Assembly (NCBI GenBank): GCA_022826565.1
Contig: JAJDUP010000026.1
Coordinates: forward strand, 306,742-370,741
Length of the DNA stretch: 64,000 bases
Source: Gemmatimonadota bacterium
Lineage (GTDB): Bacteria; Gemmatimonadota; Gemmatimonadetes; Longimicrobiales; Gaopeijiaceae
Reading direction: 5' to 3'
Positions within the stretch are counted from its first letter, which is position 1. Every line of letters starts with the position of its first letter. Shown here piece after piece: positions 41,729 through 50,304 of the stretch. The position numbers were made by a program, and so were the translations under genes. Under the pieces are notes generated by a model, which saw only the letters and a program-made list of their open reading frames with translations, did not search any database and had not been told where the DNA came from.

Positions 41729-42130
41729 ATGCGAGCACGCGCGGCCCTTGAAGCCATCGCCAAGGAAATCGAATCCATCTACGCCCCCATTCCGGCCGGC
41801 GACGAGCGCGAACCGCCCGCGCAGTTCGAGGGCGTTGCGCCGCCCGTCTTTCGCCACACGCCCAAGGAAAGCGACGTGGCCGACGAGGCCCGCTTCTATG
41901 TGGTTGAGTACGCGGGCGGCGAGGCGCTGGCCCCCACCTTCGAGGTGTACGCCTTCGCCCGTGACCGCGCCGACGTGCTGGACATGATGGACGACACCAT
42001 GGTTGCCATGGACAGCAACGGCTTCGAGGCGAGTAGCGGCGAAATCTCGCCGACCGAAGATGGCTTCGGGATCGTCATTGACGTGGTGCCTGGTTCGACC
42101 CTGGACGAGCGGCCCAAGCACTTCGACTAG
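41729..42130 (+). CDS. hypothetical phage-associated protein
   Basis: 133-aa ORF abutting the gp10-like gene; acidic, no recognised family. Confidence 0.6.
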   Translation: MRARAALEAIAKEIESIYAPIPAGDEREPPAQFEGVAPPVFRHTPKESDVADEARFYVVEYAGGEALAPTFEVYAFARDRADVLDMMDDTMVAMDSNGFEASSGEISPTEDGFGIVIDVVPGSTLDERPKHFD

Positions 42131-42469
42131 ATGCCCGCACGCCTCCACCTTCCCGACTTCGAGGCCGCCAAGCGCACCGCCCGCCCAGGCATCCCCGACG
42201 CCATGCGGCGCGGCTTCGAGGCGTGGCAAGCGGACGCGCTCAAGCGGCTCAAGCGGGCCACGCCACGCGACACGGGCCGGCTGCGCCGCCGTACCACGGC
42301 CAAGCGCAAGGGCCGCGTCGCCACCTTCGAGGCGCGCACCCAGTACGCCAGTTTCCTTGAGTTCGCCCGCGGCGGCCGGCATGAGTACATGGGCCGATCC
42401 ATCGCACGATCCGCGCGCACCCTTCCCCGCTACATCGACCGCGAGTTCAAGGCGCTCGATCGTGGCTGA
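42131..42469 (+). CDS. HK97 gp10-like head-tail/tail completion protein
   Basis: FEAWQADALKRLKRATPRDTGRLRRRTTAKRKGRVATFEARTQYASFLEFARG...; typical gp10-like size. Confidence 0.7.
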   Translation: MPARLHLPDFEAAKRTARPGIPDAMRRGFEAWQADALKRLKRATPRDTGRLRRRTTAKRKGRVATFEARTQYASFLEFARGGRHEYMGRSIARSARTLPRYIDREFKALDRG

Positions 42470-48313: not shown

Positions 48314-49933
48314 ATGCCGCGCCTGCGCTATCGGGTGTCCATGGACGCCCGCGAGGCCGACCGGGGCGCAAGGGTGGCAGAGCGGGCCATGGAGCGCGTT
48401 GAGCAACAGTCTCGGGAGACGGCGCGGGCCGTGCGACGCTTCGGCGACGATCTGGACCGCGCGGGCCGCGAGGCGGGCACGGCGGCACGAGGCTTCCGGG
48501 GGGTGCATACCGCGCTCGCCGGCATCGCCACGGGCGCGGTGGCCGTGGGGCTCCAGCGGGTGATCGCCAACGCCGCGGAATTGGGCGACAGCCTTACCAA
48601 CCTCTCCCGGGCCACCGACTTGAGCGTTGAGGCGTTGCAGACCTACGGCGAGGCGTTCCGGCAAGGCGGCGCGAGCCAGGCACAGTATGAGGCCGGCGTC
48701 GCGCGGCTGGGGCTGTCGCTGTCCCAGGCACGGCGCGGGACGCTCCTGCAAGCGGCCGCGCTGCGCGAGTTGAACGTCACCGACCTTACCGACGTGGAAG
48801 GGGCGCTGCGGCGCATCTTCGAGACGGTGGACGCCGACAGCTTTCAGCGGTTGCGGCCCGTGCTGCGGCAAGTGTTCGGAGACGACAGCGTGAGGGTGTT
48901 CGGCTCAACCCTCCAACGATCCGTCGAGGACGTGGACCGCATCCGCGAGCGCGTGGGGGCGCTGGGAACCGAAGGGGCGGCGGCGCTGTCCAGCGTGGCG
49001 AGCGAGGCGAGCGAGTTGTCGGCCATACTGCGCACCGAGTTGGCCGAAGCCGTGGCCGCCAACGCCGACTCCATCCGCGACTTGCTGGGGCAGCTGGCCG
49101 CGCTGGCCCGTGGCATATCGGAGTTTCTGACGCCGCCCGATCCGGGCGCGGCGTTCTCGCCGTTCACCCGAGGCTTGTTGACGGTCGAGGCGCGCGCGCG
49201 GCTGGCCGAGCGGGCGATCGCCGACATGAACGATGAGCTATTCCAAGGGCCGCGCCTTGAGACGGCGCCCGAAGCGGCGGCGGGACTGGATGCCGTGGGG
49301 ACGGCGGCGGGCGAGGCAACGCCGAAGGTGGACCGCGCCGGCAGGATCGCGCGGCAATCGGCCGTCGGCTTCGGACTGCTCGCCGGCGAGACTCAACGGG
49401 TGCGGCGCAATCTCGCCGACGTGGCCGCAGAAATAGCGGGCGGCTTCGAGGTTCCCGAAGTGGAGGTATTCCGCTCCGTGGACGCGCTGGGCGAGTTGGG
49501 CGAGGCGGCCGCCGAAGTGGACCGGGAGTTCTCGACGGCTTCGCGTGCCGTGGAAAGTCATATGCGGCGCATCGTGGACTCGATCGCCGACGGGACCGCC
49601 ACGGCGGGCGACCTGTTGCGGACGCTCACGGCCGCGCTACTCAACGTCGGCGTGGACCTGCTGGGCCGCCGCGTCGCCACGGGCAGCTTTTCGGCCACGC
49701 CTACCGCCGCCAGCGCGGGCCGCACGCTCGCCAACGCCCAGGCCTCCCAGCGCGCCCAGCCCATCCAACTGCACGTCGAGAACCAGTGGACGGTGAACGC
49801 CATCGACGGCGAATCACTGGAGCGGGCGTTGGAGCGCGGCCGCTCCACGATCGAGGGCATCACCGAGGCCGGCGTAATGCGCGGGCTGCAACAGGCGACG
49901 CCGCTGCGGGCCGCCGTGCGGGCGGTGCGTTGA
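48314..49933 (+). CDS. tail tape-measure-like protein
   Basis: Coiled-coil Ala-rich N-terminus, hydrophobic GVHTALAGIATGAVAVGLQRVIANAAELGDSLTNLSRATDLSVEALQTYGEAFRQGG, typical of tape-measure proteins. Confidence 0.72.
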   Translation: MPRLRYRVSMDAREADRGARVAERAMERVEQQSRETARAVRRFGDDLDRAGREAGTAARGFRGVHTALAGIATGAVAVGLQRVIANAAELGDSLTNLSRATDLSVEALQTYGEAFRQGGASQAQYEAGVARLGLSLSQARRGTLLQAAALRELNVTDLTDVEGALRRIFETVDADSFQRLRPVLRQVFGDDSVRVFGSTLQRSVEDVDRIRERVGALGTEGAAALSSVASEASELSAILRTELAEAVAANADSIRDLLGQLAALARGISEFLTPPDPGAAFSPFTRGLLTVEARARLAERAIADMNDELFQGPRLETAPEAAAGLDAVGTAAGEATPKVDRAGRIARQSAVGFGLLAGETQRVRRNLADVAAEIAGGFEVPEVEVFRSVDALGELGEAAAEVDREFSTASRAVESHMRRIVDSIADGTATAGDLLRTLTAALLNVGVDLLGRRVATGSFSATPTAASAGRTLANAQASQRAQPIQLHVENQWTVNAIDGESLERALERGRSTIEGITEAGVMRGLQQATPLRAAVRAVR

Positions 49934-50304
49934 GCGCGCGGCTGTGGACCCGGCAAGAGTTGGACCGCGAGTACTGGAGGCTGTGGCGGCTGGCGTGTCG
50001 GCGGGTGCGCGAGGCGGGCGGGCGGCGGCTGACACAAGCGGCTTGGCTGAGCACCATGCGCGGCCGCGAAGGCGAGGCGTACCGCGCGGCCAATTCGGCC
50101 CGCAGCGGTCACTACCACAGCACCGAGCGGGGCAAGGCGACCCGCCGGCGTGCTGAAAAGAGGCGGCGCCGCAGCCCAGGCTATCGAGCGTACCAGCGGC
50201 GGTATCAGCGGGCGAGGCGGGCGCGGCTGAAAGCGGAGGCCAAGGGGGGAGTTTCAGGGCGCGGGCGCGCATATAGGGGCCAAATGGAAGCGGCCGACCC
50301 CTAG
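49930..50304 (+). CDS. hypothetical basic phage protein
   Basis: TTG start at 49930 overlapping upstream stop; Arg-rich C-terminus. Confidence 0.5.
   Translation: MSARLWTRQELDREYWRLWRLACRRVREAGGRRLTQAAWLSTMRGREGEAYRAANSARSGHYHSTERGKATRRRAEKRRRRSPGYRAYQRRYQRARRARLKAEAKGGVSGRGRAYRGQMEAADP

Follow-up and report, generated by a model that had tools for sequence, protein, structure and literature searches.

A stretch of 64,000 nucleotides from a Gemmatimonadota contig (hereafter the window) contains a compact cluster of phage head and packaging genes with no integrase among them, which raises the question of what kind of element this is and how it came to reside in the chromosome. The first-pass annotation had named three options: a satellite-like element, a cluster resembling a gene transfer agent (GTA), and a decayed prophage. 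Our reading, to which we assign a probability of about 0.75, is that the cluster belongs to a 10.4-kb capsid-encoding phage satellite located in the chromosomal dif site, where it was integrated by the XerC and XerD recombinases of its host.

Gene content of the element

The open reading frames of the capsid operon, and their order, are as first described; all lie on the forward strand and are open. The operon begins with a gene for an unknown protein of 133 aa (41729..42130), which has no Pfam or PHROG match; a role as tail terminator is not claimed for its product, as the AlphaFold2 model has a pLDDT of 60 and the fold search gave no meaningful match. Upstream lies a perfect inverted repeat with 10-bp arms and a 1-nt centre (41638..41658), a possible operator. 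The genes that follow encode an HK97 gp10-like tail completion or neck protein (42131..42469; Pfam 4e-6, PHROG 5e-8), the terminase large subunit TerL (42462..44006; phrog_9, 3e-48), whose motif residues are intact and conserved across an alignment of relatives, and a packaging-associated HNH endonuclease (44155..44430; 2e-6, and phrog_144 at 2e-17); PADLOC returned generic HNH similarity only. Next come an HK97-fold major capsid protein (MCP; 44427..45668), a prohead protease (45671..46594; Peptidase_S78, 2e-11), a gp6-like head-tail connector (46585..46887), a portal protein (46884..47939; Pfam Phage_portal 1e-9, just below the Pfam cut-off), a putative head-closure or adaptor protein named only from its position (47936..48313; no family match), a tape-measure-like protein of 539 aa (48314..49933; PHROG 1e-7) and a basic protein with a TTG start, to which neither a function nor a family could be assigned (49930..50304). 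Stop and start codons, described at first as overlapping almost throughout, do so in six of the 10 neighbouring pairs; three further pairs abut or lie within 2 nt of one another, and TerL and HNH are separated by a gap of about 150 nt.

Pfam and PHROGs searches back the gp10, TerL, HNH, protease, portal and tape-measure-like assignments of the first-pass annotation. The capsid call is weak when this copy is taken alone (Pfam 0.063, PHROG 0.004) and gains its support from the family: Phage_capsid is matched by nine of 11 aligned MCP sequences (best 5e-9), and a profile built from the family finds HK97-fold capsids of solved structure (8gta, 1e-5; 8eck, 4e-5; HK97 gp5, about 0.1). An AlphaFold2 model of MCP built from four sequences was too poor (mean pLDDT 43) and was discarded. 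The gp6 call is weakly backed (PHROG 0.001), with a counterpart in a second element described below.

Genes for integrase, replication, lysis, major tail and fibre proteins had been reported as missing, and we likewise recognised none in the element, nor any baseplate gene. Neither an integrase nor an AlpA-type regulator was recognised in 41490-51912, no match to a terminase small subunit (TerS) was obtained in the element (the genes at 41729 and 49930 being without family assignment), and an Rfam search gave no match. The originally proposed extent, 41729-50304, proved too small: beyond the capsid operon the element also takes in two or three reverse-strand genes at 50848-51724. One encodes a small cysteine-rich, putatively zinc-binding protein of about 61 aa (50848..51033; no family match); the others are rhp4 (51030..51488, start uncertain) and rhp5 (51485..51724). 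Two strong hairpins (50290-50317 and 50765-50787) lie between the operon and the reverse-strand genes, and either could be a terminator or a packaging signal.

Insertion at the chromosomal dif site

A repeat search returned AATATATATTATACGAA at 41499 and AATATATATTATGCGAA at 51894. On the reverse strand the left copy reads ACTTCGTATAATATATATTATGTCAAGT, a dif-type sequence composed of a XerC arm, a 6-bp centre and a XerD arm. The left site is a complete dif (ACTTCGTATAA-TATATA-TTATGTCAAGT, in the order XerC arm, centre, XerD arm; 41490..41517, reverse strand; 58.8 bits on the dif matrix) and is the sole dif in the source genome. The right site is half-degenerate (GGTTCGCATAA-TATATA-TTCTCGCCAGC; 51885..51912, reverse strand; 23-27 bits). 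Between them the two sites delimit the span 41490-51912.

A close relative (G006) presents the empty site. Its sequence is 94-96% identical to the element's flanks at the DNA level (95-98% for the flanking proteins), and 94% identity extends beyond the half-degenerate copy right up to the site. Between the same two genes G006 has one uninterrupted dif, GGTTCGTATAATATATATTATGTAAAGT, and no element; no TerL homologue was found in its genome. When the flanks in the window are joined they yield GGTTCGCATAATATATATTATGTCAAGT, one continuous dif that aligns to G006 without gaps across the junction. As this join restores a single dif, the element is the DNA between the two sites. The insertion is thus precise, with one complete dif restored and a defective copy left on the other side; since a complete dif is kept, chromosome dimer resolution should still work.

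The chromosome-side arm of the complete dif agrees with the empty site in G006, and the complete dif is probably a hybrid whose XerC arm comes from the element and whose XerD arm comes from the chromosome. The half-degenerate copy reads as the intact chromosomal XerC arm joined to the degenerate XerD arm of the element. The attP of the excised circle would then be ACTTCGTATAA-TATATA-TTCTCGCCAGC, with a good XerC arm, a good centre and a poor XerD arm.

None of 31 relatives has more than one dif core in its genome, and a reversed control pattern gave one match, in a single other genome. A looser pattern found exactly one site in 21 of the 23 genomes of the genus (control, 0); G010 and G011 are the only members without a match at two or fewer mismatches, and their dif could be divergent or unassembled. 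We judged chromosomal position by the distance between dnaA and dif, which in two closed genomes of the genus is 1.96 of 4.09 Mb (48%) and 2.29 of 4.47 Mb (51%). In most members dif is flanked on one side by genes for proline-dehydrogenase-like and beta-lactamase-like serine hydrolase proteins, and on the other by genes for a TPR (YfgM-like) protein and a threonine-dehydratase-like protein. At one locus (L091, in G009) dif and the TPR gene are separated by roughly 1.6 kb of additional sequence, in which no second dif-like site was found.

The source genome (G000) encodes recombinases closest to XerC (309 bits) and XerD (326 bits), both slightly below the equivalog cut-offs. The XerD-like gene is in the window, outside the element (13064..13990, forward strand; NCBIfam XerD 326 bits, cut-off 329.6), about 27.5 kb from dif.

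A second, independent case is found in G022, a member of the same genus, in which a diverged element (MCP 47% and portal 36% identical) occupies the same dif. This element has a complete dif at one end (G022:C8:2468) and a XerD-degenerate dif at the other (G022:C50:6817), with the beta-lactamase-like and TPR genes outside them as in the window. It is about 9.3 kb long and carries TerL, HNH, MCP, protease, gp6 and portal genes; gp10 and tape-measure genes were not recognisable in it. Its assembly is split inside TerL onto two contigs, at a point where a second TerL copy is present in the genome; both flanks are unambiguous. The second TerL (L038/L040, at the end of G022:C8 and the start of G022:C53) adjoins an integrase of the type found in G019, and G022 seems to hold both dif-type and integrase-type elements.

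The dif-type boundaries, the empty dif in G006, the location of dif opposite dnaA, the XerC- and XerD-like genes of the host and the G022 case together lead us to class the element as an integrative mobile element exploiting Xer (IMEX), inserted in dif, with dif-type ends and no integrase, and with Xer proteins as the probable catalysts. The absence of an integrase, noted at first as a gap, therefore stands as an observation but not as a gap, because the element sits at dif and most likely borrows the host's XerC and XerD.

Satellites of filamentous phages, namely TLC-phi and RS1, are already known to occupy dif. The element in the window shares with TLC-phi and other IMEX (CTX-phi, VGJ-phi, GGI and LME-1) its location at dif, the lack of its own integrase and the presence of an intact dif on one side and a degenerate one on the other; TLC-phi is, moreover, itself a satellite. 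The attP sites of TLC-phi and of the gonococcal island GGI also have a conserved XerC arm and centre and a divergent XerD arm (PMC5357621, a review), and insertion of LME-1 results in an intact dif together with a modified one that reduces excision (PMC9765430). Our element differs from all of these: the Vibrio IMEX are either filamentous phages or satellites of such phages, GGI belongs to the genomic islands, and LME-1, although phage-like, uses a single recombinase. In the literature we examined, an HK97-type capsid with terminase and portal is described for none of TLC-phi, CTX-phi, VGJ-phi, GGI and LME-1.

Relatives of the element and alternative explanations

The gene order had been regarded as an anomalous rearrangement of the HK97-type arrangement. 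It is instead the norm of a family: TerL-HNH-MCP-protease-gp6-portal is common to loci in G019, G005, G014, G022, G193, G365, G305 and G150 and to loci L059 and L060, some of which are too diverged or fragmentary for every gene to be placed. Three relatives of an integrase type have clear ends, bounded by direct repeats: of 47 bp at a tRNA-Arg gene (L059; 10,148 bp), of 22 bp at a tRNA-Glu gene (L060; 9,494 bp) and of 18 bp (L126; 9,924 bp). Inspection of these relatives revealed no tail tube or lysis genes, and the tape-measure-like gene was not seen in relatives. AlpA-type regulators adjoin the integrase in L126 and L127, a PICI-like arrangement.

These relatives bear on whether the element is a deletion remnant of a larger temperate tailed phage that had integrated at dif and was then stripped of its genes for tail tube, lysis and replication. 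Such a history would account for gp10-like and tape-measure-like genes occurring without a major tail protein. We nevertheless consider it unlikely, given that the att sites at both ends are preserved and every frame is open, that the diverged G022 element at the same dif also lacks these tail genes, and that the integrase-type relatives are equally compact, with the same content and their own att repeats. A longer, complete prophage with these genes, which the first-pass annotation had named as the sign of a deletion remnant, was not found: TerL and MCP scans of IMG/VR, covering 2.9 million viral contigs as searched, yielded no relatives, and phage records contained TerL proteins of only about 28% identity. 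With open frames, intact TerL motifs, no longer relative found in these searches, patchy presence, related copies at unrelated loci and an empty site, a decayed prophage is not supported.

The head genes, unaccompanied by lysis or replication genes, could also be a domesticated capsid or GTA-like cluster that packages host DNA, and the portal profile, which matches HK97-family portals in the PDB, has the GTA portal Rcc01684 (6tba) among its best matches. However, the family is present in few members of the genus and the site is empty in the close relative G006, a distribution that is mobile and at odds with the conserved vertical inheritance by which GTAs are recognised. The precise insertion in dif, the occurrence of related copies at unrelated loci, tRNA genes included, and the strong divergence between copies also speak against a GTA-like cluster, which we regard as very improbable. 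Of the options first proposed, a satellite-like element is thus the one retained, as relatives of 9.5-10.1 kb bounded by att sites carry the same capsid module and no longer prophage was found.

A further alternative is an autonomous minimal virus, independent of any helper and entering cells without a conventional tail, for which the presence of terminase, capsid, portal, connectors and a tape-measure-like protein could be taken to argue. Yet HK97-portal particles normally require a tail for injection, and no lysis, receptor-binding or replication genes were recognised, so that we consider this very unlikely. The tail-less dif prophages of Vibrio, which are not known to have a terminase-portal system, offer some precedent for it. 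Those prophages are, like our element, small double-stranded DNA elements at dif and of similar size, but they have a double jelly-roll capsid and often their own integrase (PMC11630473).

A probable satellite dependent on host recombinases

The best reading of the element is as a capsid-forming satellite, similar to the capsid-forming PICIs (cfPICIs), of a probably sponge-associated Gemmatimonadota lineage. Like cfPICIs (PMC10690885, PMC11389934), it is about 10 kb long, encodes its own MCP, protease, portal, connectors, TerL and HNH, and presumably borrows its tails, no tail-tube, baseplate or lysis genes having been recognised in it. It differs from them in having no integrase, AlpA, recognised TerS or replication gene, in its location at dif, in carrying a tape-measure-like gene and in the placement of capsid before portal; its integrase-type sisters do carry an integrase, and two of them AlpA. 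Judged by its genes, the element resembles a cfPICI in its capsid module and, lacking integrase and AlpA, is not filed as one. The Streptomyces satellites MiniFlayer and MulchRoom likewise encode capsid and packaging proteins of their own but lack an obvious replicase, and MiniFlayer also has no integrase; their genomes, by contrast, are linear with terminal repeats and encode different proteins, and MiniFlayer is proposed to attach to its helper rather than to use dif (PMC10690885).

In the element, a dif-type att site is best read as having taken the place of the integrase/AlpA module, together with two small DNA-binding-like proteins that were seen in the two dif elements only. Both of these elements carry rhp4 and rhp5 (79 aa, a possible ribbon-helix-helix protein) next to their degenerate site; identities to the G022 proteins are 34% and 53%, respectively. 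Among 101 genomes searched, rhp4 was found in two, in each case in the dif element, and neither gene had a match in the integrase-type relatives compared. The G022 homologue of rhp4 has a weak NikA-like match in its C-terminal region, which suggests a ribbon-helix-helix DNA-binding domain.

On the evidence of these genes and sites, we propose that the element enters and leaves the chromosome through the host's XerC and XerD, and that the defective dif copy would keep it stably integrated. The rhp4 and rhp5 proteins may regulate the satellite or assist Xer excision, a role like that of XafT in TLC-phi. When a tailed helper phage infects the cell, a circle would be excised, replicated by the machinery of the helper or the host (no replicase having been recognised in the element) and packaged by the element's TerL and HNH into an HK97-type capsid that the element also encodes. 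A helper tail could then be attached through the element's connector proteins, its length possibly set by the tape-measure-like protein. The gene encoding this protein is unusual in a tail-less satellite and is the least explained part of the element. Xer-mediated integration and excision, capsid formation and dependence on a helper are all predictions of this kind. A search of the element's own genome with a single family, PhageMin_Tail, found no resident helper.

In the open-access literature searched, outside which many subscription papers lie, we came across no satellite with an HK97-type capsid described at dif. Integrase-less satellites found computationally have been described as likely inactivated (PMC10690885). 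Should capsid-forming satellites be able to exploit dif and the Xer proteins of the host, some integrase-less satellites would be intact, dif would be a place to look for satellites in any genome, and the exploitation of Xer would extend beyond filamentous phages and islands to satellites with HK97-type capsids. The chances seem to us evenly balanced that a broader proposition holds: that there is a lineage of HK97-capsid satellites without integrase or AlpA which live in dif by way of XerC and XerD, whose small protein pair switches on Xer excision upon helper infection, and which, as a convergent double-stranded DNA counterpart of TLC-phi and XafT, would explain some of the 'integrase-less' satellites dismissed as dead. 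The position of the rhp4 and rhp5 candidates beside the att site makes the activation of Xer for excision a directly testable question.

Within the family, identities of TerL, MCP and portal rank the relatives differently, which suggests exchange of modules. Codon positions 1 and 2 are better conserved than position 3, a contrast that is clear for TerL and weaker in some pairs of MCP or portal genes, and that fits past purifying selection. The genomes compared are mostly metagenome-assembled, and the L059 and L060 contigs are binned as Rhodospirillales and Nitrospinota, an assignment that depends on binning; these two loci suggest either spread across phyla or misbinned contigs. By TerL the two are close relatives (56-59%), and both apparently come from the same kind of sponge sample series. 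At L035 (G008:C104) the module is permuted, with MCP and portal upstream and TerL and HNH downstream, as if a circular map had been opened elsewhere, and L036 (G021:C1, at about 380 kb) is a decayed member of the family that is not at dif, its TerL and HNH genes being fragments interrupted by stop codons.
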